This document shows positions 9,601 to 33,829 of a stretch of 64,000 nt of DNA, piece after piece. A model generated the notes under the pieces. That model did not search any database. It saw only the letters and a list, made by a program, of their open reading frames with translations, and was not told the DNA's origin. Source of the DNA: Gammaproteobacteria bacterium (GTDB lineage: Bacteria > Pseudomonadota > Gammaproteobacteria > JAABTG01); assembly GCA_034522055.1 (NCBI GenBank), contig JAXHLS010000006.1, positions 1,150,790 to 1,214,789 of the forward strand. Direction: 5' to 3'. Every line of letters starts with the position of its first letter. Positions within the stretch are counted from its first letter, which is position 1. The translations under genes were made by a program, and so were the position numbers.

Positions 9601-9662
9601 TCTCCAACAGCGGCACGACACAAAACGAGCGACAAACAATCAGTATCGACCTTCCTGAATTG

Positions 9663-9686
9663 TTTCGCTTCTGGGAAAAGCGAGCG
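9663..9686. repeat. partial copy (D) of the ~85-bp structured repeat
   Basis: TTTCGCTTCTGGGAAAAGCGAGCG matches only the right end of copies A-C (TTTCGCTCTTGGGAAAAGCGAGC). It lies 7 bases from an attC-like palindrome, as copy A does. Confidence 0.6.
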
Positions 9687-9766: not shown

Positions 9767-10240
9767 CTATACATCCACCACCTCAACAACAATCTCTGCC
9801 GGAAGCGGGCCATAATCTTGGGCTACAAGTATTATCTCGCGATCTCCGGGTATGGCCGGTTTAGTAGCATACGTTGATACTTCATGGGCGGTCACCCCAT
9901 GCACAGAAAGTAGCGCCGTATCTATTTTGTATACAATCCCATTTGGATATTTGCCACCATGCGTAGCGTACCTTTTTGCGTTTTCTCGCACTGGTGTCGT
10001 TGAGACGCCTGACGTAGGATTTTTCGAACTATTGCGTTGATGTTTAATCACAGCATTAGTCTCAGATGCACCATAAGTAGACCCGTCTCCGTAGTATGAG
10101 TCCTTTTCCGGATCTCCAGTACTGCCATAATAGATTGGCTTCTTGAACTCTTCCCCGGGGGATCTAGGTATAAGCCTCCCATTGGACGCTTCATGCATCT
10201 CAGGATTAACTCCTCGGTAAAGATATGCCGGCATGTTCAT
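9767..10240 (-). CDS. putative ADP-ribosyltransferase-fold protein
   Basis: The 157-residue protein begins LYRGVNPEM (a YRG motif as in the Arg of R-S-E ADP-ribosyltransferases). It continues with GVSTTPVRENAKRYA (the STT/STS motif followed by an A-helix) and ends in PGDREIILVAQDYG, where the Glu could be catalytic. The intervening IVYKID...AHEV pattern also fits the NAD-binding fold. If so it would modify a protein or other target with ADP-ribose, as many small toxins do. There is no signal peptide. It is AT-richer than the core genome and sits in a cassette-like context, suggesting transfer. The fold assignment rests on short motifs. Confidence 0.55.
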   Translation of the reverse strand: MNMPAYLYRGVNPEMHEASNGRLIPRSPGEEFKKPIYYGSTGDPEKDSYYGDGSTYGASETNAVIKHQRNSSKNPTSGVSTTPVRENAKRYATHGGKYPNGIVYKIDTALLSVHGVTAHEVSTYATKPAIPGDREIILVAQDYGPLPAEIVVEVVDV

Positions 10241-11626: not shown

Positions 11627-12759
11627 TCAGTGTCGCGTGTCGGGCGGTCTCCAGGATGCTCGACTGGGCGCAATCTGCGCGGTGATGTACAGCCGCCCGG
11701 TCCGGCACTGCGGGCAGGGATAGTCGACGCTGTCGTGGTGTGCGGTGCCGTCGTCCTTCTCCGGTGGGACGGGGACGGCCAGGGCCTCACGGATCCGGGC
11801 GAGCTTCTCCCGGCGGCCGCGGTTGGCCAGGAAGCCGAAGTGACGAATGCGCATCAGCCCTTTCGGCAGGACATGCATCAGGAAGCGGCGCACGAACTCT
11901 TCGCCCTCCAGGGACAATGTCTTATGTCGGTCACGGTCGCGGTAGTCCTTGTACCGAATGGTCACCCGTTCGTCGTCGACCGCGAGGATCCGCGCTGGGG
12001 TGATCGCGATGCGGTGGGTGTAACGGGCCAGGTAGTCGACGACGGTGGCGGTATGGTCGAGACAGTGTTTGGTGTAGACCACCCAGTCAACGGCCATCAA
12101 GGCGTCGAGTACGGCATCGACCTCGCCGTCGCGCGTGACACGGTGCAGGTCGCCCTGGGTCGCGGCCTGGCGCAGCCGGGTCACCATCCGCCCCGGAAGT
12201 GCCGCGAGAGCGCCTTGACCGGAAACAGGTAGGTGCTCTTCGCCGCCCGCCACTGGCCGTCACCGCCCAGCGCCCCGCCCGGTACCAGGCAGTGCAGGTG
12301 CACATGGCGGCTCAGGTTCTGGCCCCAGGTGTGCAGCACCGCGCTCATGCCCATCTCACCGCCCAGACGCTTGGGATCCTGGCCGAACGCCTTGAGGGTG
12401 GACCAGGCCGCCTGAAAGAGCAGGCGGTAGATCACCTCCGGGTGCAGTGCCACCCAGCCGTTGAGGGTATGTGGCAGGGTGAAGACCAGATGGTAATAGG
12501 TCACCGGCAGGATGTGCCCCTGCTGACGCGCGGCCCATTGGCGGGTCGCCCGTCCCTGGCACTGCGGGCAGTGCCGGTCGCGGCAACCGTGATACCAAAC
12601 CTCTTCGTCACCGCAGGCGCCGCAGCGCAGCCGCACCCCGCCCATCGCCTCGGTTCGGCAGGCCTGCAGATGGCCACAGACCTTGCGCCGCTGGTAATCC
12701 AGCGTGTCAGCGCGCAGGAAGCGGTTCAGAATCCCTTGCACAGTGGCCGCCTCAGTCAT
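11627..12759 (-). pseudogene. IS91-family HUH transposase, frameshifted
   Basis: The N-terminal frame (12759 to about 12190) carries the zinc-binding CGACGDEEVW...CRDRHCPQCQ, the typical LPVTYYHLVFTLPH, and the HUH metal site in HVHLHCLVPGG. It stops after RHFRGGW. The C-terminal frame (to 11627) continues with GRMVTRLRQA, VVYTKHC and the Tyr nucleophile motif VDYLARYTHRIAI, and a final zinc-binding CPQC. A one-base shift near 12190 separates them, so the full ~370-residue nickase would not be made unless ribosomes shift frame. It overlaps the recombinase gene by 8 bases. Confidence 0.85.
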
Positions 12760-13609
12760 GACCCACCCCCAGTCCCGCGATCAGATCGGACACCCCCTGC
12801 GCAGCGCCGCGCTGCTCGGGTACCCAATGCACGTAGCGCATCGTCGATTGCAGGTTGCCGTGGCCGAGCAGGCGTTGCAGCCGGTGGACCGGCAGGCCGC
12901 TCTCCAGTTGATGGGTCGCATAGGCGTGACGCAGGCTGTGGATGCCGCCGATCTTCTCCACTCTGGCCCGGTTCTTGGCGCGACCGAACACCCGCTGGGC
13001 GCTGGCGATACTGAGAGGGGTCGTCGTATCGCTTCCGCTGGGAAAGAGCCACGTGGGGGGGCGGTAAACCGCCCAGTAACGGCGCAGCGCGTGAAGCAGG
13101 CCGGGCGAAAGGGTGACCAGCCGGTCCTTCGCCCCCTTGCCCTGCTCGATGCGCAGCAGCCCGCGTTCGCCATCGATATCACGCACCCGCACTCGCACCA
13201 CCTCGCTCACCCGCAGGCCGCAGCCGTAGCAGGTCTGAAGCAGCATGCGGTGCTTGGGGTTGGTACACGCCACCAGAATGCGCCCCACCTCATCGCGGGT
13301 CAGCAACTCGGGGATCCGTTGGGCCCGCTTCGGCATCACGAAGGACACATCGAACGACGGCCACTTCAGCACCTGCACATAGAGGAAGCGCACCGCACCG
13401 TGGTGAACCCGGCAGGTCGAACCGGATAGCGAACGCTCGACGGCCAGATACCTGAACCAGGCCTCCAGCTCTTCGAGGCTCAACTGACTCGGCGAACGCC
13501 CGTAGTACCGCGCCAGGGCGGTAACCGCTGCCAGGTAACTCTGATGGGTACGCACTGAAAAGCCACGCTGGCGCATGGCATCAATCATCTGCTGACGCAA
13601 GGGTGTCAT
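12752..13609 (-). CDS. tyrosine recombinase of IS91-family element
   Basis: The 285-residue site-specific recombinase has an N-terminal SAM-like core-binding domain (about 1-85) and a complete catalytic domain. Catalytic residues are Arg in CGLRVSEV, Lys in GKGAKDRLV, His-x-x-Arg in HSLRHAYATHQLE, His in LLGHGNLQST and the Tyr nucleophile in TMRYVH. It lacks the extra helix insertion typical of integron IntI, so I read it as the accessory recombinase of the IS91-type element. ATG at 13609 is followed by MTPLRQQMIDAMRQRGFS. The gene appears intact. Confidence 0.9.
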   Translation of the reverse strand: MTPLRQQMIDAMRQRGFSVRTHQSYLAAVTALARYYGRSPSQLSLEELEAWFRYLAVERSLSGSTCRVHHGAVRFLYVQVLKWPSFDVSFVMPKRAQRIPELLTRDEVGRILVACTNPKHRMLLQTCYGCGLRVSEVVRVRVRDIDGERGLLRIEQGKGAKDRLVTLSPGLLHALRRYWAVYRPPTWLFPSGSDTTTPLSIASAQRVFGRAKNRARVEKIGGIHSLRHAYATHQLESGLPVHRLQRLLGHGNLQSTMRYVHWVPEQRGAAQGVSDLIAGLGVGHD

Positions 13610-13880
13610 CGTCGTCTCTCCTCTCAGTCAGACCCACATCGGGTCAACTGAGAGTGTTGACGACGGAAGAACCGCCGGCGTTTATCGAAGGGGAGCTACC
13701 GCGGAGCGGTTTAGTTCAACAGGTGAGTATGTGGACGACACAAATATCGTGCATTGTCGCTGCTACCGATACTGGGATAGGGAGCGAAGGTTTTAGCGAA
13801 ATGTTGCATTTAGAAATTGCCAGGACCCCTCCTAATTATAAATTTTAGCTCAACACGCTAGGTGGAACGGGTTTCGCTCG
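13610..13880. other. non-coding stretch at the IS91 right side
   Basis: I see no gene. It includes GTTGAC-type inverted motifs at 13634-13665 (GTCAACTGAGAGTGTTGAC), possibly part of the element's terminus, and an AT-rich tail at 13830-13855. Confidence 0.4.
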
Positions 13881-13964
13881 TAGAAGAAGCGAGCGCTTTT
13901 AGGAACACTTTTCCTTCAGCATTCCATGAACTGCTGAAATAGTTCACTCCTGGGAAAAGCGAGC
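13881..13964. repeat. ~85-bp structured repeat, copy A
   Basis: It starts TAGAAGAAGCGAGCG, has the central hairpin TTCAGCA-TTCCATGAAC-TGCTGAA and ends TGGGAAAAGCGAGC. It is about 80-85 percent the same as copies B (18154-18235) and C (21350-21432). In copy A an extra CGCTCG lies just left of the unit, forming an arm with GCGAGCG. It lies 10 bases from an attC-like site. Confidence 0.85.
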
Positions 13965-13974
13965 CAACGCCAGC

Positions 13975-14041
13975 CATAACCGGCGCATTTGTAGTGAGCA
14001 CAGCGAACGAAAAATGCGTCCGAGCTTGCGGCCTTGTTATG
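13975..14041 (-). repeat. attC-like site next to the 1205-residue gene
   Basis: CATAAC (13975-13980) and GTTATG (14036-14041) are complementary outer boxes. An inner stem, CGGCGCATTT (13981-13990), pairs with AAATGCGTCCG (14012-14022) leaving one extrahelical base, a hallmark of attC sites. On the minus strand it reads CATAACAAGG...TCGGACGCATTTTT...GCGCCGGTTATG, resembling chromosomal integron attC sequences. It begins 52 bases past the stop codon of the 1205-residue gene. Confidence 0.6.
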
Positions 14042-14092
14042 TGTCATACGGTTGGGTAGCGCTCTACCATCGACGCACGGGTGGCCTCCCGC

Positions 14093-17000
14093 TCAGCGAT
14101 AGCCACGAATCAATAGCCGCCTTACCTCACGACTGTCGCTCGCCACCGTCATCACGGTCACGACATACCGTTCCAGCCAGGCTGTTCTGGCAATGTCGAG
14201 TATCGCCGCCTCTCTGCTGAAGAACCTCAGGTGCGCACCACCATAAGTCTCGACCGTGAATCCCTCGAAGTCCCCGAAGTGGTCGAACAGCAGCCCAGAT
14301 ACCTTGCCCGAATGCCTGCCCGACCCAGCCTTGCCTGGTGGTTCGAGGCCTGAAGTTTTATCTAGCCACTCGTCATCGCCAGGCTCCAGGAACGGATTCA
14401 TATCAATTGTATCTCCCCCGGTATCTCCAACGTCCTGGTCATCTGCACCCCCGCTGCCATCGTCGTCATCACCAAGTCCCGGGATGGCCGGATTGGGCGA
14501 CGGATCAATCGAAAACGGATCGATGCCGAATGCGCGGACCTTTTCGGTCATGAGTTCGACGTAACGTCCGAACGTTGCATACCAGCGACTCGTGGGCTTC
14601 ACGAGACCCGCACGCCAGCGCAGCAGCGCCAGCAGCCGCAGCAACTCCACACGCATCGTCTGTCTATCAGAGACCGGAATGCCCATCTGGAAGGCCCCGA
14701 TCGTCTCTCGCCATCGCCCCGACGTGCTTGCGAACGTTTTGAGGTCTTCCTTGCTTGGGAGTCTCATCAACAGAGGTTTGTCGGATTTCATGTCGAACAC
14801 TGACGTGTCGGTCAACAGCACATCTCTATCGCCGATGCGGAACGCACCCCGTGGCAATCCTTCCTGGAATTCGCCATCGACGTCATTCCGATCGAGCAGG
14901 CGCAAGGCCTCCGCACGCGAAATCTGGCGCCCTTCGTACTTTGGCGGCCTGCCCCGTCGCTCACGGTAGGTGACCTGGCGGATCGAAACGTCATAGCGTT
15001 CCCCTTTCCTGATGCCCGGCGGAAAGTGGGTGCTGACGACACCGGTTTGCCGGACGTGGTGCCTCGGGATCGGCACGTAGCAAACCCCGCCCGCCGGCAC
15101 TGCCACGGTGTGCTTATCCAGTACGTACAACGCGTGCCGGGCGTAGAAACGATCGGCCAGTTCGATGACCTGTTGCGCGTCCCACGTCGGTATAAACAAA
15201 GCGGCAAACGTGCCGTCCGGTGCACCCCGATGCCAGTCGACCAGCAGCTCGTCAGGCCAGTAGTTATCGGCGATCGGCGCCGGCGTCGCCTCTATCTCGA
15301 AAGTGTGCAAGGCCATCCGCGAGGCTTCCAGCCCAGGATTGGCGATCTCGCTCATGGCGATATTCCGTTGTGCGAGTTTGTCAGAAGTCGACGGCTTGGC
15401 GAAATCGGGAATCGCCGTGCCCTGGTGTTCGATCTGCGCAACGATGCATTGATGCGCACCCATCAGTAGCGATGAACGACCCACGGGCGCAGCAGCCGAT
15501 CCCGGTTCTGGCGGCAGATACGGAGTATTGAGGTTGGTATCGATCAATGCGCCGAAGAATGTGGATATCTCCTCGCCCGGTACAGGCGCGATCGATACTT
15601 CAACGTTGTTCGGGTCGGTCTGCGCGCTGGGAGTGGCCGCGCGCGCAGATGCGAACATCGGAAACGACAGCCATTCGTCACCCGCGGCATTCTCGCCCGG
15701 CAGCGCGATGGGATTGGCGCCGGCCGTCTGCAGGTATCCCGCCATGGGCGTGCCATCGATCGGCGTCGCCCCACCGGTGCGCCGGAACGTCAATGCCGCC
15801 GTCGTCTGCGTCGTGAAGATCCTAAAGAAGACGCGCACGTTGTTCGCAGCGACCGCCTGGCCGTTCAGGCGTACGCGGGCAATCGCAAAGTTATAGACGG
15901 GCTTGCCGCTGGCAGTGGTCGTCGGCAAAGGGCTCAGGGCCGATTCCGCCTGGGTCATCGGGATCCCTTCAAACCCGCCGATCGCCAGCGTACCAAGTAC
16001 GTTCTGTAGCCAGGTCCGGGCCTGAGCAGGCGTCGCATCCTCGACCAGCGTATGACCGAGATACGGCGTACCTGCCACGACCTTGAATACCCGAACGTCG
16101 GAGCTGAGCCAGTGCGTATCGTTACCGTTGGCAAGATCGACCATGAAGGGATTGGCCGCCTTGACGAGTACGATCCACGCCCGGTCAGTAAGCGGATCGG
16201 TGACGCCCGTGGGATCGAGCAAGCCATCGATATACAGCGCACGATTCTCGCCGCCGAAGCCGAACGCCGCCATCGGATCGACGGTCACCTCGTACGTGAA
16301 CGTGAAGCGCTGCAGTCGGTCCAGCAGACCCGGATCGTCGCTGTCAACGTCTGATGCCCGAATGGTGATTCCGTCATCGTCTTCGAGCGTGAGTCCGGGT
16401 GCCCACGCGTCCAGTTGTGCCTGCGATGGGCTCAGGGTCGTGATGCCGCCGCCCGGGAACTGGCTGGGCTTGAGTCCGTCGACCGTAACGAGGAAAGCTG
16501 CACTGAAAGTACCGCCGGCCGTTGCCTCGTCCTGGCTGAACGTGCTGCGCTCGAGGATAATCTGAATTGCGGGCCTCGGCCGCGCAAGCCACTTAGTGAT
16601 GTTCAGGTAGACGGCTTTGATATCAGCGAAGGTCGCTTCGGCGCCGGCGTAGCCAAAGCCCTGGCCCTTGGCCGCATCCGGACCAGCCAGGGCAAATTCT
16701 GTCGACGTATTGATGTCGGTATCGCCGGTCAGGTTGATGTCGATGTAGTGGTGGAAGGTCGCGCCGGTGACGATTCGCCCGACACCAACGGCTCGGCCGT
16801 CGTATGTGCTCAGGGTGTTGACGGTCTTGGGGGTAGGCAACACGTTACTGAGGAAGTCTCCGCCGAACCCGCCGGCCGCGAACTTGGAGAGCTGCGCAAA
16901 GGATTGGCCGGTCGCGATGATCTCCGGCAATTCACGGTGACCATCGAGCAACGGAAAATCCGTCAGGGTGCCACCGTCGATGAACGGCTGCAGTTCGGCG

Positions 17001-17710
17001 CTTCCCAGCGTGTTGCCTTCGTGCATGTGATCCGGGAACACAGTGATATCAGTGCCGTTACGCCGCAGAATGGTATGCGCTGGGGAACTCGTCGGCGTGA
17101 TCTGCTGCGGAATGGAATCCGATTGGTTCTCGAAGAAGGTGAATTCCTCCGTTTCTCCGCTGTAGTCACTCTGGGGATTCTTCTGTACCGTGTCGGCTTG
17201 AAACGAACCCACGACATCATGGTTGAGCGGAAAACCGGCGGGTAGCGTATCGGCCTGCGTGTCGTTCATGCCGAACCAGGTCCGCATCGCCCTGACGCGC
17301 TTGATGTGGCCACCGGTATCGGCGCCGATGCTGTCATGGTCACCAGTGGCAAAAACGCCGCCACCCGCATCCATGAAGGCCTCAATCGCCGCGTGTTCGG
17401 CGGCGGACAGCAGATGATCGCCGCTTGATCCACCCGTACCAGGCGGGAAGGCGTTCCGCCCATGGTAGCCAAACAACCAGATCACGTCGTAGACAAGCAG
17501 ATCGTGGCTGGAAAAGTCGAAACCGTTCTCATCGGCCGTGACGTCGGCATCGGGATCGCGATGAGCCTTGTAGACAGTCATGCCCGCGTTTTCGAGTGTC
17601 TGCACGAGTGTAGTGAACGTGAAGTCTTGGGCACCCGTATGCGGTTCCGGTGCAGGGGCCTGGTCGAAGCGGTATTCGCCGTCAAGAACCATGAGTACCG
17701 AGATAGGCAT
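14093..17710 (-). CDS. 1205-residue protein with ThuA/amidotransferase-like N-terminus, unknown function
   Basis: ATG at 17710 follows a strong GGAGGG seven bases upstream. Residues 1-380 look like a ThuA/class I glutamine-amidotransferase-like fold: MPISVLMVLDG, HDLLVYDVIWLFGYHGRN, AFMDAGGGVFATGDHDSIGA and TVFPDHMHEGN. The nucleophile Cys of true amidotransferases is replaced in ATGDHD. A conserved HHYIDINLTGD follows near 330. The middle (380-780) looks beta-sandwich-rich, and 900-1000 has charged segments. A Gly/Asp-rich linker (LGDDDDGSGGADDQD) precedes a C-terminal domain (SGLLFDHFGDFEGFTVET...RRLLIRGYR). There is no signal peptide. I recall similar orphan proteins in other bacteria but no assigned function. 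It has no operon partner; an attC-like site and an 85-bp repeat lie downstream. Confidence 0.75.
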   Translation of the reverse strand: MPISVLMVLDGEYRFDQAPAPEPHTGAQDFTFTTLVQTLENAGMTVYKAHRDPDADVTADENGFDFSSHDLLVYDVIWLFGYHGRNAFPPGTGGSSGDHLLSAAEHAAIEAFMDAGGGVFATGDHDSIGADTGGHIKRVRAMRTWFGMNDTQADTLPAGFPLNHDVVGSFQADTVQKNPQSDYSGETEEFTFFENQSDSIPQQITPTSSPAHTILRRNGTDITVFPDHMHEGNTLGSAELQPFIDGGTLTDFPLLDGHRELPEIIATGQSFAQLSKFAAGGFGGDFLSNVLPTPKTVNTLSTYDGRAVGVGRIVTGATFHHYIDINLTGDTDINTSTEFALAGPDAAKGQGFGYAGAEATFADIKAVYLNITKWLARPRPAIQIILERSTFSQDEATAGGTFSAAFLVTVDGLKPSQFPGGGITTLSPSQAQLDAWAPGLTLEDDDGITIRASDVDSDDPGLLDRLQRFTFTYEVTVDPMAAFGFGGENRALYIDGLLDPTGVTDPLTDRAWIVLVKAANPFMVDLANGNDTHWLSSDVRVFKVVAGTPYLGHTLVEDATPAQARTWLQNVLGTLAIGGFEGIPMTQAESALSPLPTTTASGKPVYNFAIARVRLNGQAVAANNVRVFFRIFTTQTTAALTFRRTGGATPIDGTPMAGYLQTAGANPIALPGENAAGDEWLSFPMFASARAATPSAQTDPNNVEVSIAPVPGEEISTFFGALIDTNLNTPYLPPEPGSAAAPVGRSSLLMGAHQCIVAQIEHQGTAIPDFAKPSTSDKLAQRNIAMSEIANPGLEASRMALHTFEIEATPAPIADNYWPDELLVDWHRGAPDGTFAALFIPTWDAQQVIELADRFYARHALYVLDKHTVAVPAGGVCYVPIPRHHVRQTGVVSTHFPPGIRKGERYDVSIRQVTYRERRGRPPKYEGRQISRAEALRLLDRNDVDGEFQEGLPRGAFRIGDRDVLLTDTSVFDMKSDKPLLMRLPSKEDLKTFASTSGRWRETIGAFQMGIPVSDRQTMRVELLRLLALLRWRAGLVKPTSRWYATFGRYVELMTEKVRAFGIDPFSIDPSPNPAIPGLGDDDDGSGGADDQDVGDTGGDTIDMNPFLEPGDDEWLDKTSGLEPPGKAGSGRHSGKVSGLLFDHFGDFEGFTVETYGGAHLRFFSREAAILDIARTAWLERYVVTVMTVASDSREVRRLLIRGYR

Positions 17711-18153
17711 GTTACAACCCTCCGTAGTTGAGTACAGAAAGAAGAAAAACGAGATTCGCCTCGGACCAAGAGTTTTTTAACCGCGCGGGAAAGCCACCTA
17801 GCAGAAGTGCCAGCGACTTTCCGTGTTTAATCACAGAAGATATCCTCGACGCAACGTCCGACCATTGGATACCGCATGTCACCGATATCGCTAGAGGCAC
17901 CAAACGGATTCATGCTGTGGGTGCCAGCGACTTGCGGATGGTGACAGCTACGAGGCGCAGGACGGGGGCAGAGAGTGGTGGAAGACTTCCATGCGATCCC
18001 TGAAACAAGAAGGGCTTGAGAGGGCGAGATGTACCGGGGGATGTCCATGGCGGTCACCATCATTGGTGGGGCCTTGTGCAGATTCTAGTCGCCACCACAT
18101 CTAGTGCCAACTTGTCCGTCCCCGGATGGCCAAGCACCAAGAGCTTTCGCTAA
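17711..18153. other. non-coding stretch between the 1205-residue gene and repeat copy B
   Basis: No gene with recognisable coding content is visible on either strand. The promoter of the large minus-strand gene should lie near 17725-17780, where the sequence is AT-rich, but I cannot fix hexamers. Confidence 0.4.
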
Positions 18154-18235
18154 TAGAAGAAGCGAGCGTCTGGGAACGCTGCTCCTTCAGCATTTCATGA
18201 ACTGCTGAAATATTTCGCTCTTGGGAAAAGTGAGC
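18154..18235. repeat. ~85-bp structured repeat, copy B
   Basis: TAGAAGAAGCGAGCG, then GGAACGCTGCTCC, the hairpin TTCAGCATTTCATGAACTGCTGAA (one base variants in other copies), and TTTCGCTCTTGGGAAAAGTGAGC. Its right edge coincides with the first base of the mtnC relic. Confidence 0.85.
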
Positions 18236-18411
18236 ATCGCCGGGGAGATCGAGGTGCCGCCGGGCCGGATCCTGTTCCTGTCGGAGTGCGCGAGGAACTG
18301 GACGCTGCCCGCCGCGCCGGCTGGCAGACCGTGTGGCTCACCCGCGCCGCCTACCCCCCGCTGGCGGCCGCCCACCGGCGGGCGACCCGTTTCGACCAGA
18401 TACCCCTCTGA
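18236..18411 (+). pseudogene. mtnC: enolase-phosphatase (MtnC) C-terminal relic
   Basis: The sequence reads IAGEIEVPPGRILFLSE, then after a one-base deletion REELDAARRAGWQTVWLTRA and RATRFDQIPL followed by TGA. This is the end of the HAD-type enolase-phosphatase of the methionine salvage pathway (ILFLSD..EELDAAxxAGxQTxWL). About 60 of 230 residues remain. The upstream part of the gene is absent and replaced by repeat copy B, which ends exactly where homology starts. Confidence 0.8.
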
Positions 18412-21166: not shown

Positions 21167-21349
21167 AGCAGGCCGTTACCGCCGGCATGGCGCTGCCGGT
21201 CGGGGCAGTCCACCGCCCTCAGGCGCAATGCGAAATTACGCACCGGCCTCGCGGTCCGCAGGACATCCCGTTGCGGACCCTCAGGCGGTAAGGGTGGCCG
21301 GTTTGGGTCGAATGCAGACACACTCATCCTGATACAAGGGGTTCGGAAA

Positions 21350-21432
21350 TAGAAGAAGCGAGCGCATCTAGGAACACCCTTCTTTCAGCATTTCATGAAC
21401 TGCTAAAATATTTCGCTCTTGGGAGAAGCGGA
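21350..21432. repeat. ~85-bp structured repeat, copy C
   Basis: TAGAAGAAGCGAGCG, GGAACACCC, TTTCAGCATTTCATGAACTG CTAAAA-type hairpin, and TTTCGCTCTTGGGAGAAGCGGAC. It lies about 180 bases after the antitoxin gene; the spacer 21167-21349 holds no gene. Confidence 0.85.
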
Positions 21433-21473
21433 CCAAACGGCAGTAAATTCTGGCGCCACTAAAGGGCGCCTAG

Positions 21474-28417: not shown

Positions 28418-29851
28418 TCATTCCGGGAACATATCCACCTGCACACCGGGGCCGCGGGGGGGCGGGCGGCGCAGCGGCCTCCTCCTGGCGCAGCCGCTCC
28501 TCGTCGTCGAAGCCTCGCAGCATGGCCCCGAGTTCGTCGATGGCCTGCTGGTAAAGCTCATTCGAAGACCAGCCGGACTGCGCCCACTTGGTATCGTCCT
28601 CAAGCTCCACGCCGAGACGCTCGGGGGAGAGCACCTGGTAGATGCGCTGCCAGCGGCCTTCGATGCGCAGGGCGAGCCCCGGGTTGAGCACATAGCTACC
28701 CCGGCGCACGCGCCTGAACAGCTTACGGTTGTATGGACCTTCCCGATTCACCTCGTTCTTCGCCAGGATGGACGAGATATACGGGCGCCGCTTGCGCCGC
28801 TGGGGCACGACGGAGTCGTGGAAGTCCGCGAGGACTTCCTCGAAGTCCACCGCCGTCAGAAGCATCCGCCGCTTCGCCCAGCTGGTGCCGAGACGCTGGT
28901 AGAACAGCACCATGGCGAGGCAGAGCATTAGGTACTCCATCTGGCTGCGGTCGAGCTTGACCAGGCGCCCGTCCACCTGCACGTCGAGACTCGCCGGCGC
29001 CAGGCGCTCAAAGATGGGCGGCAGCCGGGTGCGCGCGAAGCGCTCGTCGGTGCATGCCCGGTCGAGGGCGATCTGAAAGGCGTTGAGGCCGTTGCCGTCC
29101 ACCAGGGTGGTGTCGGCGTCCCGGTCCAGCAGCATCTCCGCGAGTTCCGCATTGCCCATGCGACTCGCGATCATGAGCGGCGTCTGGCCGAACACGTTGC
29201 GGAAGTCGACCCCGTACTTTTCGGTGTCCCGCAGCACCTTGGCGGGTGTCTTGAGCCCGTAGGGCAGGTAGTATTTCTTCTCGATCAGGTCGAGGGCCTT
29301 CGCCGGGTTCTTGACGGCCTTGACGCCCGCCTGCTCGAGGGCGTTGAGGCGACGCTGGTCACGATAGACCAAGGCGTACTCCATCAGCGCGATGCCGGCC
29401 TTCTTCTCCCGGCCCTCGAGGGCCTTGTGCTCCAGCTCGGCGAGAGCGTCGCCGCGCAGCACGCTCCAGGGCACTCCCCGTTCTTTCAGGATGTGGCTGC
29501 GGATCTCCGCCGCCTGCTCGTCCTTGCCCTGGAGTTCGAGACGGTGGGCCTCGTGGCGCCACTCTTCCAGGCTCGAGCGCTGCTCGTCCATCCCTTCCAC
29601 GTCCTCGTAGACCTGGCCCAGGCCGAGCAGCTCCAGCACCTGCTGGCGCGGCTGGGGCTCGAGCAGATAGAGGTTCTTCACCGCCCGGGTGACCGCCACG
29701 TACAGGGCGTTGATGTAGAACTTGTAGATCTCGAGGGACTTGTCCCCCTTGTCCCGGCCCCGGGCATAGGTGAGTTCGCCTGCCAGGCTCGCCTCGTCGA
29801 GGCCCGCGGCGATGTCCCGGAAGAGCCGAGCCCCTCGGCGATTTATCCATG
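28418..29851 (-). pseudogene. UvrD-like helicase C-terminal part with ankyrin repeats, truncated
   Basis: The remaining ~475 residues start at the intron edge (ARLFRDIAAGLDEAS), then helicase motif VI-like IYKFYINALYVAVTRAVKNL. A helical region and ankyrin-like repeats follow (DFRNVFGQTPLMIASRMGNA, ELAEMLLDRDADTTLVDGNG). The C-terminal domain (PYISSILAKNEVNREGPYNR...GRWQRIYQVLS) is of unknown function. All ATPase motifs (Walker A and B) are missing; the gene is cut by the group II introns. A homopolymer of C at 28455-28461 appears one base off: in the other frame the end reads [11 protein letters not shown] and stops at 28418. The architecture, a superfamily-1 helicase fused to ankyrin repeats, is known in accessory loci. 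Confidence 0.75.
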
Positions 29852-31770
29852 ATAGGGGTCGGGAAGGAGTGACCCTCCCCGCCCTCCGAACCGTGCATGC
29901 GGTTCTCCCGCACACGGCTCTCCAGTCGGTGGTTACCTCATCGGGATTGGCTCGCCAACGTCCGGGCTTCGGTCATGGTGAAAAGCCCAGCCGCAGCGAA
30001 GAACGCGTTCGGCCAGCGGAGATGGTCGGACTGACAATGACCCGCTCCCGGGCGCTTCTGCTGCTTGCGCAACAGCGCCCGTAATCGACGTCGGACAAAA
30101 CCGTCCACGCGAGGAAAGGTCCACGGGTGCGCGTGCTGGAAATACACGAACCAGCCACGCAGCATCGGGTTCAGGTCGGCCACAATCCGCGCCAGCAAAT
30201 CCCCACGACTGCGCCGGGTTTTGGCCCGGACCCGGTCGTAAAGGGCCTTGCGGCTCTTCTTGCGTACCCACCGCCGTCCCGCTTCAAACCGGTACCCGAG
30301 AAACTCAAAGCCTTCCCCGGGCTGCCGGCAATCCCCCACACGGGTCTTCTCCGGGTGCAGTTGCAGACCATTGGCCTCCACCCAGTGCCGCAACTCCTGC
30401 AGCGCCTCCTGGGCTTCGTCCGGACTGGCACACAGGATCACGAGGTCGTCAGCATACCGAACCATCCGATAGCCGCGCTGGGTCATGTGTACATCCAGCC
30501 CGTGCAGGTACAGATTCGCGAGTAACGGACTGATCACCGCCCCTTGGGGCGAGCCCCGGGTCGGCGTCCAGCGCGCTATCTCCGCCACCACGTCCTGGCG
30601 CAACCAGGCGCGCAGCAGGTCGAGGATCCGACCATCGCTGATCCGGTCCTCGACCCGGGCCATCAACGCTTCGTGCGGGATGGTGTCGAAGTACTGGGCC
30701 AGGTCGGCATCCACCACATGGGTGTAGCCCTCCCGAACCAGCCCATCCACTTCCCGCAGCGCATCCTTGCACCCGCGACCCGGGCGAAACCCGTAACTCA
30801 TCGGCAAAAACTGGTGCTCGAAAATCGGCTCGAGCACCCGCTTCATCGCCGCCTGCACAATCCGGTCCTTCACCGTCGGAATGCCCAGGGGACGCGTCCC
30901 TGTCCCCTTCGGAATCTCCACCCGACGCACCGCATCCGGTCGGTACCGTCCAATTCCCAGCGCCTCTCCCAGCTCCGCCAGATACCGCTCGGCATGGGCC
31001 TCAAAACGCTGCACACTCTGGCCATCCACCCCCGCTGAACCCCGGTTGGCCCGCACATCCTGCCACGCCCGTTCCAGGGTCTGGGGGCGATGCACCTTGT
31101 CGATCAGACTGAACCACTTCGTCCCTTGGACGCCGTTACCCAGCGCCGCCAACATGCGCTCCGTCCAGATCGTGCGGTCCACCCACGGCCATTCCACCGG
31201 GTTGGACGAGTCTGGCTTAGCCTCTTGCGAGACACTCTCGACCCTTTGCATACGCGCTCACCTCCTCCGGACTTCACCCATCCACCTTCCTGCCTCCCTT
31301 CCCTCGGCGCGATTTCTGTTCTTCGCGCTTTCCCGGCACCACCCACGGTTTTAGGCGGAGGACGCCCTCCAGCTCTTGGGTCCGCGTTTCCGCAGCACCT
31401 CGCCATGACCGCAGCAGAACCGTTCAGTACTACGAAGGCTCTGACTCCTGCCCACCGTCACCACGGCGGTCAGGTCTCCCCGCTTCTCTCGCATTTCCTT
31501 CCCAGCGTTCCGTCTCCAACCACGGAGGGGACCCGAATGTCGCTTTCCACGCCAGTCCCAGCGCATCCGATGAGTTTCAGGCTTCACCTTCTCCTAGCGG
31601 GCTCGCCGTCCCGTACCGCCGAATCGAGTTCGTCATCCTACGGACCGCCAGTTCGCCTCCGGTTGCTCTCCACCCCGCCTCGCGACGACGCAGTTACCTT
31701 CGACTACGGGGCCTTGGCTTACCCCGACACGGACTCTCACCGTGCAGAAAATGCGCCTCCACGGACGCAC
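29852..31770 (-). mobile_element. group IIC intron, copy 1
   Basis: This 1919-base intron runs on the minus strand from GTGCG (5' end at 31770) to GACCCCTAT (3' end at 29852). Domain V (AGCCGTGTGCGGGAGAACCG...CACGGTTC) lies at 29888-29920. Directly 5' of it is a hairpin GCCGAGGGGGCTCGGC (in 31771-31795), the kind of terminator-like stem that class C introns insert behind. The 3' flank is the truncated helicase gene. It encodes one RT. Confidence 0.88.
29938..31251 (-). CDS. group IIC intron reverse transcriptase/maturase, copy 1
   Basis: The 437-residue protein has RT blocks from about 70 to 330: RGSAGVDGQSV, RRVEIPKGTGTRPLGIPTVK, YGFRPGRGCKDALREV, VVDADLAQYFDTIPHEALM, GSPQGAVISPLLANLYLHGL and the catalytic YADD at 266-269. 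The maturase region is at 330-437 (MLRGWFVYFQHAH), ending WPNAFFAAAGLFTMTEA, typical of class C. No HNH endonuclease is present, also as in class C. It is identical to copy 2 except Leu352 instead of Ser. It is intact and could support retrohoming. Confidence 0.95.
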   Translation of the reverse strand: MQRVESVSQEAKPDSSNPVEWPWVDRTIWTERMLAALGNGVQGTKWFSLIDKVHRPQTLERAWQDVRANRGSAGVDGQSVQRFEAHAERYLAELGEALGIGRYRPDAVRRVEIPKGTGTRPLGIPTVKDRIVQAAMKRVLEPIFEHQFLPMSYGFRPGRGCKDALREVDGLVREGYTHVVDADLAQYFDTIPHEALMARVEDRISDGRILDLLRAWLRQDVVAEIARWTPTRGSPQGAVISPLLANLYLHGLDVHMTQRGYRMVRYADDLVILCASPDEAQEALQELRHWVEANGLQLHPEKTRVGDCRQPGEGFEFLGYRFEAGRRWVRKKSRKALYDRVRAKTRRSRGDLLARIVADLNPMLRGWFVYFQHAHPWTFPRVDGFVRRRLRALLRKQQKRPGAGHCQSDHLRWPNAFFAAAGLFTMTEARTLASQSR

Positions 31771-31877
31771 TGGGAGCCGAGCCCCCTCGGCGATTAACCC
31801 TCGACGATCGCACCCCCACCACCCAATCGGCCAAAGGGCTGGCCTCCTACACCTACATCGCTCATCGAACCCGCCTG
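31771..31877. other. 107-bp spacer between tandem introns with terminator-like hairpin
   Basis: On the minus strand the spacer starts with a possible coding end (MSDVGVGGQPFGRLGGGGAI, VEG, then TAA). That TAA is followed at once by TCGCCGAGGGGGCTCGGCTCCCA, a hairpin that ends at the intron 5' splice site. It fits a gene end plus Rho-independent-type stem used as intron target. Confidence 0.6.
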
Positions 31878-33796
31878 ATAGGGGTCGGGAAGGAGTGACC
31901 CTCCCCGCCCTCCGAACCGTGCATGCGGTTCTCCCGCACACGGCTCTCCAGTCGGTGGTTACCTCATCGGGATTGGCTCGCCAACGTCCGGGCTTCGGTC
32001 ATGGTGAAAAGCCCAGCCGCAGCGAAGAACGCGTTCGGCCAGCGGAGATGGTCGGACTGACAATGACCCGCTCCCGGGCGCTTCTGCTGCTTGCGCAACA
32101 GCGCCCGTAATCGACGTCGGACAAAACCGTCCACGCGAGGAAAGGTCCACGGGTGCGCGTGCTGGAAATACACGAACCAGCCACGCAGCATCGGGTTCAG
32201 GTCGGCCACAATCCGCGCCAGCGAATCCCCACGACTGCGCCGGGTTTTGGCCCGGACCCGGTCGTAAAGGGCCTTGCGGCTCTTCTTGCGTACCCACCGC
32301 CGTCCCGCTTCAAACCGGTACCCGAGAAACTCAAAGCCTTCCCCGGGCTGCCGGCAATCCCCCACACGGGTCTTCTCCGGGTGCAGTTGCAGACCATTGG
32401 CCTCCACCCAGTGCCGCAACTCCTGCAGCGCCTCCTGGGCTTCGTCCGGACTGGCACACAGGATCACGAGGTCGTCAGCATACCGAACCATCCGATAGCC
32501 GCGCTGGGTCATGTGTACATCCAGCCCGTGCAGGTACAGATTCGCGAGTAACGGACTGATCACCGCCCCTTGGGGCGAGCCCCGGGTCGGCGTCCAGCGC
32601 GCTATCTCCGCCACCACGTCCTGGCGCAACCAGGCGCGCAGCAGGTCGAGGATCCGACCATCGCTGATCCGGTCCTCGACCCGGGCCATCAACGCTTCGT
32701 GCGGGATGGTGTCGAAGTACTGGGCCAGGTCGGCATCCACCACATGGGTGTAGCCCTCCCGAACCAGCCCATCCACTTCCCGCAGCGCATCCTTGCACCC
32801 GCGACCCGGGCGAAACCCGTAACTCATCGGCAAAAACTGGTGCTCGAAAATCGGCTCGAGCACCCGCTTCATCGCCGCCTGCACAATCCGGTCCTTCACC
32901 GTCGGAATGCCCAGGGGACGCGTCCCTGTCCCCTTCGGAATCTCCACCCGACGCACCGCATCCGGTCGGTACCGTCCAATTCCCAGCGCCTCTCCCAACT
33001 CCGCCAGATACCGCTCGGCATGGGCCTCAAAACGCTGCACACTCTGGCCATCCACCCCCGCTGAACCCCGGTTGGCCCGCACATCCTGCCACGCCCGTTC
33101 CAGGGTCTGGGGGCGATGCACCTTGTCGATCAGACTGAACCACTTCGTCCCTTGGACGCCGTTACCCAGCGCCGCCAACATGCGCTCCGTCCAGATCGTG
33201 CGGTCCACCCACGGCCATTCCACCGGGTTGGACGAGTCTGGCTTAGCCTCTTGCGAGACACTCTCGACCCTTTGCATACGCGCTCACCTCCTCCGGACTT
33301 CACCCATCCACCTTCCTGCCTCCCTTCCCTCGGCGCGATTTCTGTTCTTCGCGCTTTCCCGGCACCACCCACGGTTTTAGGCGGAGGACGCCCTCCAGCT
33401 CTTGGGTCCGCGTTTCCGCAGCACCTCGCCATGACCGCAGCAGAACCGTTCAGTACTACGAAGGCTCTGACTCCTGCCCACCGTCACCACGGCGGTCAGG
33501 TCTCCCCGCTTCTCTCGCATTTCCTTCCCAGCGTTCCGTCTCCAACCACGGAGGGGACCCGAATGTCGCTTTCCACGCCAATCCCAGCGCATCCGATGAT
33601 TTTCAGGCTTCACCTTCTCCTAGCGGGCTCGCCGTCCCGTACCGCCGAATCGAGTTCGTCATCCTACGGACCGCCAGTTCGCCTCCGGTTGCTCTCCACC
33701 CCGCCTCGCGACGACGCAGTTACCTTCGACTACGGGGCCTTGGCTTACCCCGACACGGACTCTCACCGTGCAGAAAATGCGCCTCCACGGACGCAC
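31878..33796 (-). mobile_element. group IIC intron, copy 2
   Basis: The second 1919-base copy is displaced by exactly 2026 bases and differs from copy 1 at only a few positions (for example 32222, 32998, 33581). Its 5' end is GTGCG at 33796 and its 3' end at 31878. Domain V lies at 31914-31946. It is also preceded on its 5' side by the hairpin GCCGAGGGGGCTCGGC at about 33805-33820. Confidence 0.9.
31964..33277 (-). CDS. group IIC intron reverse transcriptase/maturase, copy 2
   Basis: The 437-residue protein is the same as copy 1 but with Ser352 (RGDSLARIV). All RT and maturase blocks, including YADD, are intact. Near-identity of the two copies points to a recent duplication or a second insertion from the same source. 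Confidence 0.95.
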   Translation of the reverse strand: MQRVESVSQEAKPDSSNPVEWPWVDRTIWTERMLAALGNGVQGTKWFSLIDKVHRPQTLERAWQDVRANRGSAGVDGQSVQRFEAHAERYLAELGEALGIGRYRPDAVRRVEIPKGTGTRPLGIPTVKDRIVQAAMKRVLEPIFEHQFLPMSYGFRPGRGCKDALREVDGLVREGYTHVVDADLAQYFDTIPHEALMARVEDRISDGRILDLLRAWLRQDVVAEIARWTPTRGSPQGAVISPLLANLYLHGLDVHMTQRGYRMVRYADDLVILCASPDEAQEALQELRHWVEANGLQLHPEKTRVGDCRQPGEGFEFLGYRFEAGRRWVRKKSRKALYDRVRAKTRRSRGDSLARIVADLNPMLRGWFVYFQHAHPWTFPRVDGFVRRRLRALLRKQQKRPGAGHCQSDHLRWPNAFFAAAGLFTMTEARTLASQSR

Positions 33797-33829
33797 TAGG
33801 AGCCGAGCCCCCTCGGCGATTTATCCATA
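33797..33829 (-). terminator. hairpin at the 5' side of intron copy 2
   Basis: On the minus strand, ATGGATAAATCGCCGAGGGG leads into GCTCGGCTCCTA and then the intron GTGCG. The stem GCCGAG/CTCGGC with a GGGG loop is the same as in the other two places (29821-29850 and 31771-31795). Poly-T is absent, so it may be only an intron target rather than a working terminator. Confidence 0.5.

Follow-up and report, generated by a model that had tools for sequence, protein, structure and literature searches.

ThuA-like domains have been described in several multidomain proteins. In a levan-binding surface protein, such a domain is paired with Ig-like domains (PMC7618045). Dimethylformamidase also contains a ThuA-like domain (domain III), which is joined to an Ig-like domain, and its iron site has been published as a 2-Tyr-1-carboxylate site (PMC7686228). 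For PelA, carbohydrate binding by a ThuA-like domain has been proposed (PMC12022489). Here, we analyzed a 64,000-nucleotide stretch of DNA, referred to as the window, in which a lone gene encodes a 1205-residue protein with a ThuA-like head in front of a rear half that recurs in other bacteria behind unrelated heads.

The gene is an open reading frame of 1205 codons starting with ATG, preceded by a GGAGGG motif with a gap of 7 bases. The strong ribosome-binding site announced in a preliminary description of this DNA is readily seen.
14093–17710, minus strand: modular-protein coding sequence, 1205 amino acids (open reading frame list, homologs, codon-position comparison)
17718–17723, minus strand: ribosome-binding site GGAGGG (read directly)

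The copy found in Amphritea balenae encodes a protein 87% identical at the amino acid level, and codon positions 1, 2, and 3 differ between both copies by 9.0, 5.8, and 34.3%, respectively. Judging from these two comparisons, which exclude a chance reading frame, 14093–17710 is a real gene under strong purifying selection. No same-strand partner gene lies beside it: the gene is flanked by IS91/tyrosine-recombinase genes and, at the opposite end, past 18467, by an S8 peptidase, so the lone position initially reported holds. The IS91-family transposase (11627–12759, minus strand) extends over two frames (12181–12759 and 11627–12253) and is apparently broken; a XerD/integron-integrase-like tyrosine recombinase (12752–13609) adjoins it.

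Searches of Pfam, NCBIfam, PDB sequences, PADLOC, and PHROGs with the full 1205-residue protein gave no significant match, and Rfam gave none around 14093–17710. The family is rare and has no entry in the databases searched, while its fold class is already known; judged against open papers and part of the head types, its architecture and residue set appear new. However, the protein is not the orphan it was first taken for, since homologs spanning all or nearly all of its length are present in 6 other genomes. A bacterial genome scan recovered full-length relatives in Amphritea (87% identity), Microbulbifer halophilus (70%), a Hellea MAG (53%), Marinicella (50%), and a Myxococcales MAG (49%), as well as a relative in Sphingomonas asaccharolytica (48%) that has everything except the tail.

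The N-terminal part of the protein forms the head.
16556–17710, minus strand: head, residues 1–385, ThuA-like/GATase1-like fold, with invariant D124 H125, D227 H228 H230 E231, and T318 H320 H321 (alignment, AlphaFold2, Foldseek, VIA-align, profile)

An AlphaFold2 model of the head, built from 14 sequences, reached a pLDDT of 72 and a pTM of 0.81. Foldseek ranked ThuA-like proteins at the top of its matches, and VIA-align gave Z scores of 15.3 for 2gk3 (the best ThuA-like match, over 202 residues with an rmsd of 2.8), 15.0 for 3soz, 14.6 for 1t0b, and 14.4 for 3rht. Both programs therefore bear out the ThuA/GATase1 fold proposed earlier for the N-terminus. At the sequence level, the best hit of the head profile among PDB sequences was again 2gk3, which was not significant (E 1.3) and agrees with the later fold match. 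The ThuA family (PF06283) was absent at the Pfam gathering score both in the 1205-residue protein and in all 14 head homologs. Comparison of the head profile with PF06283 proteins from other genomes aligned a strand-helix-strand segment to the elbow, a weak link (73.5%).

At the elbow, where amidotransferases have a Cys and ThuA proteins a His, the head carries Gly-Asp-His (GGGVFATGDHDS). In the profile alignment, Gly123 occupies the place of ThuA H121 after the aligned elbow strand (GxHS) and is followed by Asp124-His125. By eye, GRIVTGATFHH in the head is similar to GRxxYTxLGH of ThuA, in a region that the profile alignment stopped short of. The absence of a Cys nucleophile, already pointed out from the sequence, was confirmed: GDH is invariant at the elbow, and Cys755 and Cys877 are the only cysteines of the whole protein. 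The reading as a decayed amidotransferase was rejected, as the ordinary ThuA proteins compared also lack the Cys and other residues of the head are invariant.

Eight residues (D124, H125, D227, H228, H230, E231, H320, and H321), lying in the conserved motifs GDH, DHMHEG, and THH, are identical in 14 of 14 head sequences, among which are actinobacterial and bacteroidete heads without the rear half. According to their position in the sequence, D124/H125 fall in the elbow loop and H320/H321 come after the strand ending in the ThuA/GATase histidine. This Asp/His/Glu set resembles a catalytic or metal site, and we infer that its residues share one pocket. Such a pocket would sit at the position of the amidotransferase active site and would probably bind a metal. 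The head may then bind or hydrolyze a carbohydrate or amide-type substrate. We favor a metal-dependent carbohydrate or amide enzyme or binder because of the parallels with the levan protein, dimethylformamidase, and PelA, together with the invariant His/Asp/Glu set.

Among the further structural matches of the head, N-acetyl-(R)-beta-phenylalanine acylase, an amide hydrolase, scored Z 11.0. Along with the union of ThuA-like domain III and an Ig-like domain in dimethylformamidase, this match could speak for a dimethylformamidase-type hydrolase of amides or formamides whose ThuA-like domain contains a mononuclear metal. We regard this as quite improbable, as the invariant set is His-rich here and the domain order is reversed compared to dimethylformamidase. 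The other matches were the scaffold protein IFT52 (5fmr, Z 13.7) and the levan-binding protein 8aa2 (Z 11.9).

The rest of the protein could be divided into four parts, and the beta-rich body, acidic linker (~1077–1130), and conserved C-terminal domain of the preliminary description were all recovered by alignment and modeling.
16151–16570, minus strand: Ig-like beta-sandwich, residues 381–520, start of the constant rear half (alignment, model, fold match)
14483–16150, minus strand: beta-rich middle and C-terminal helices, residues 521–1076, low-confidence model, with conserved SDKLxQRN and VFFRxF (alignment, model)
14321–14482, minus strand: acidic low-confidence linker, residues 1077–1130 (sequence, model)
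14096–14320, minus strand: OB-fold tail, residues 1131–1205 (GKVSGLLFDHFGDFEGF...) (tail search, model, fold match)

The model of the rear half (381–1205) was mediocre, with a mean pLDDT of 65 and a pTM of 0.45, and its middle ~550 residues were poorly predicted. Residues 381–520 matched Ig-like folds at Z ~7–8, which is a generic level, and the tail (1129–1203) matched SilF at Z 10.4 over 71 residues with an rmsd of 2.3, as a match of fold only. The rear-half profile gave nothing significant against PDB sequences. Integrins, adhesins, and small toxin B subunits, which also came up as fold matches of the rear half, were taken as generic Ig-like or OB-fold resemblance.

The same rear half was found behind several other heads. 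In a Mycobacterium MAG (L009), it follows a sortilin/Vps10 propeller (62.8 bits), and in a genome of the window's class (L055) a kelch/galactose-oxidase E-set head (76.6 bits). Two Bacteroidetes MAGs and a conjugative Paraburkholderia plasmid have it after heads with a HE(L/I)xExxxDP motif (HExxE-type; L012, L013, and L030), and by eye L011 has it after a PQQ-propeller-like head. Two other head types without family assignment are found in L010/L057 and L056/L058. The OB tail occurs alone at the end of a pro-kumamolisin (sedolisin) peptidase in an Acidobacteria MAG (L028); another tail match (L059, genome G833) was discarded as chance, as this LamG protein ends in a type IX secretion tail. Conversely, the head without the rear half forms proteins of ~450–525 residues in Amycolatopsis, Lentzea, and Crossiella, and longer proteins elsewhere. 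Where other members have the tail, the Sphingomonas copy ends with a hydrophobic helix, and the tail match is absent from the whole Sphingomonas genome. Since heads vary, stand alone, or are replaced by a sedolisin in front of the tail, and given the Sphingomonas helix, a constant carrier with exchangeable heads is the simplest description of these architectures.

Several of these loci have conspicuous neighbors. On the Paraburkholderia plasmid, three tyrosine recombinases in a row come after the carrier gene (L030, 10849–13785); the window genome has many repeated recombinase clusters too. In L057 (919–5240), the carrier gene adjoins genes for a lanthionine-synthetase-like kinase and a CYASGG-repeat protein. 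In Amycolatopsis (L022, 4094–10295; L024, 7764–12273), stand-alone heads are followed, by eye, a few genes downstream by D-Ala-D-Lac-ligase-like and VanX-like genes, a proximity that is probably lineage synteny.

Our preferred explanation, which we hold tentatively and a little below an even chance, is that the 1205-residue protein is modular, with a constant C-terminal carrier bearing an N-terminal head that can be exchanged, where the ThuA-like head is a metal-dependent carbohydrate or amide enzyme or binder docked by the carrier. The carrier, with its Ig-like domain, beta-rich middle, acidic linker, and OB-fold tail, would most likely position or dock the head on a partner or surface. Replacement of the tail by a hydrophobic helix in Sphingomonas fits a localization role for the tail. 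The OB-fold and Ig-like matches are generic, the family includes no known enzyme, the members inspected lack an obvious Sec signal despite their secreted-type heads, and the middle is poorly predicted, all of which weigh against this explanation.

Small OB-folds can bind oligosaccharides. Such chains are among the fold matches of the tail, and the levan surface protein shows the same ThuA-like/Ig-like pairing, which would suit a non-catalytic glycan-binding protein whose head binds polysaccharide, with Ig-like spacers and the OB-fold tail as a second binding site. This is possible, though we think it rather unlikely: the charged His/Asp/Glu motifs, being invariant, have the look of a catalytic or metal-binding site instead of a lectin, lipobox and signal peptide are absent by eye, and no SusCD-type gene was recognized by eye among the neighbors.

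Inspection by eye revealed no signal peptide or lipobox in the 1205-residue protein, the first strand coming directly at the start (MPISVLMVLDG). Of the members inspected, none showed an obvious Sec signal peptide, even though the majority of heads are similar to secreted proteins. A cytoplasmic scaffold at the membrane edge, devoid of enzyme activity, would agree with the missing signal peptide, with the terminal hydrophobic helix of the Sphingomonas version, as in tail-anchored proteins, and with the ThuA-like fold of IFT52. We nevertheless deem it improbable, as the head has invariant polar motifs and the heads of several relatives resemble enzymes. Beyond the preferred head-on-carrier explanation, a bolder and unlikely extension is that the rear half is an unrecognized bacterial carrier platform, by which unrelated swapped heads, enzymatic or propeller, would be docked Sec-free through one Ig/OB-fold body to one conserved partner or exit route, encoded by a lone gene crossing phyla.

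The family is rare and its distribution patchy, with single copies so far as tested. Full-length members are found in Pseudomonadota and one Myxococcales MAG, while the rear half additionally occurs in genomes of Mycobacterium, Acidobacteria, and Bacteroidetes. In a search of 95 related genomes, a number that includes the window genome, only the latter had the full protein, and 1 other had the head alone. The rear half was detected in 3 of 299 Pseudomonadota genomes with the window's own counted. In an Acidobacteria-centered sample of 247 genomes, 3 had the tail, the starting genome included; 12 of the 15 carriers searched have one tail copy each. No relatives were found among viral contigs and phage records.

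This patchy spread in accessory DNA, a TIR-like gene adjoining L004, and, near L005, a kinase-like gene with a PADLOC match might indicate an anti-phage defense or effector protein carried in an island. However, the other loci have no consistent defense neighbor, and the protein itself matches nothing in PADLOC, PHROGs, or viral sequences, which makes this role highly improbable; the defense-island association raised in the preliminary description found no support, as neighbors vary among homologs.

Comparison of the window with the Amphritea locus showed how far the shared DNA extends.
14036–17782, minus strand: unit common to the Amphritea balenae locus, 83% DNA identity, with a GTTAA start and an AAC core end (blastn)
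13964–14042, minus strand: attC-like hairpin downstream of the gene, occurring once in the genome (sequence, pairing, folding)
13869–13967, plus strand: 99-nt dispersed repeat abutting the attC-like site (repeat search)
18140–18238, plus strand: second copy of the 99-nt repeat, in direct orientation, flanking the gene opposite the first (repeat search)
21338–21436 and 9655–9685: further copies of the 99-nt repeat in the window

The blastn match is continuous over 14036–17782 and ends abruptly at GTTAA, 72 bases before the ATG, and at the AAC core after the stop. The core ACATAAC lies ~52 bases after the stop of 14093–17710, where an attC-like site had been claimed. Past the AAC core the DNA of the window and of Amphritea is unlike, yet an attC-like hairpin is present in both, with fold z scores of −1.4 and −4.1, respectively. 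The window element has AACAAGGC and AGCTCGGACG in common with sites beside the Amphritea integron integrase (432 bits). The Amphritea and Microbulbifer carriers both have an integron integrase match over the TIGR02249 cut-off, and the window genome has neither such a match nor a cassette array. Our own attC scan, which required complementary outer cores, found 0 sites in 9–24 kb and was also blind to the Amphritea array sites seen by eye, so that its outcome carries no weight. The gene spreads horizontally and singly. Because the unit is bounded by GTTAA and the AAC core of an attC-like hairpin, it is plausible that the gene moved as an integron-type cassette, with the chances about evenly balanced. 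The absence of an integrase over the cut-off, the single attC-like copy, the ~4 kb unit, and the unlikeness of the element between both carriers argue against such a movement.

Further repeats and mobile elements were noticed. In Amphritea balenae, the gene-bearing insertion lies after rpsA, as named by eye, and is followed by a truncated second rpsA 3' end, at most 98% identical (L003, 7004–7435 and 11932–12311). The structured 99-nt repeat has 17 matches in the window genome, clustered in the window region and in C2 at 3.18–3.55 Mb, and the start of at least those at 13869 and 9655 coincides with a GTT that comes after an attC-like hairpin. A neighboring repeat-bounded segment holds a small gene (9767–10240, minus strand) with a NarE family match (E 1.2e-11). 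Two adjacent group II intron maturase genes (29938–31251 and 31964–33277) lie within 29800–33826, in 2-kb stretches that are 97.7% identical.

The family is an unannotated one with a clear architectural rule, in which N-terminal heads are swapped on a constant C-terminal body. This rule predicts that members have a partner or location in common, and the prediction is testable in the culturable hosts Amphritea balenae, Microbulbifer halophilus, and Paraburkholderia sprentiae. The head represents a ThuA-like branch whose invariant residues are distinct, and the unit may exemplify the movement of very large genes by cassette-type ends.

Compared to known systems, the unit is like integron gene cassettes in its lone gene, attC-like element after it, and abrupt shared boundaries at GTT/AAC cores, but differs in its size (3.7 kb), the single attC-like copy, and a genome lacking an array and an integrase over the cut-off. 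Class I glutamine amidotransferases have a nucleophile Cys at the elbow, whereas the 1205-residue protein has GDH there. ThuA-like proteins (PF06283; 1t0b, 2gk3, 3soz, and 4e5v) share the head fold over 202–222 residues and the absence of the amidotransferase Cys; the 1205-residue protein differs from them by having no Pfam match, Gly-Asp-His for the elbow His-Ser, DHMHEG insertions, and an 820-residue rear half. The levan surface glycan-binding protein (8aa2 chain G) likewise combines ThuA-like and Ig-like domains but is lipidated and SusCD-linked, with a reversed domain order and no OB tail. The large subunit of dimethylformamidase has a ThuA-like core and an Ig-like domain as well, but possesses a pentraxin domain and the 2-Tyr-1-carboxylate iron site, and lacks an OB tail. 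Finally, the sedolisin-headed relative (L028) shares the OB tail of the 1205-residue protein, and the sortilin- and galactose-oxidase-headed relatives (L009 and L055) its rear half, while the N-terminal heads of all three are unrelated to its own.
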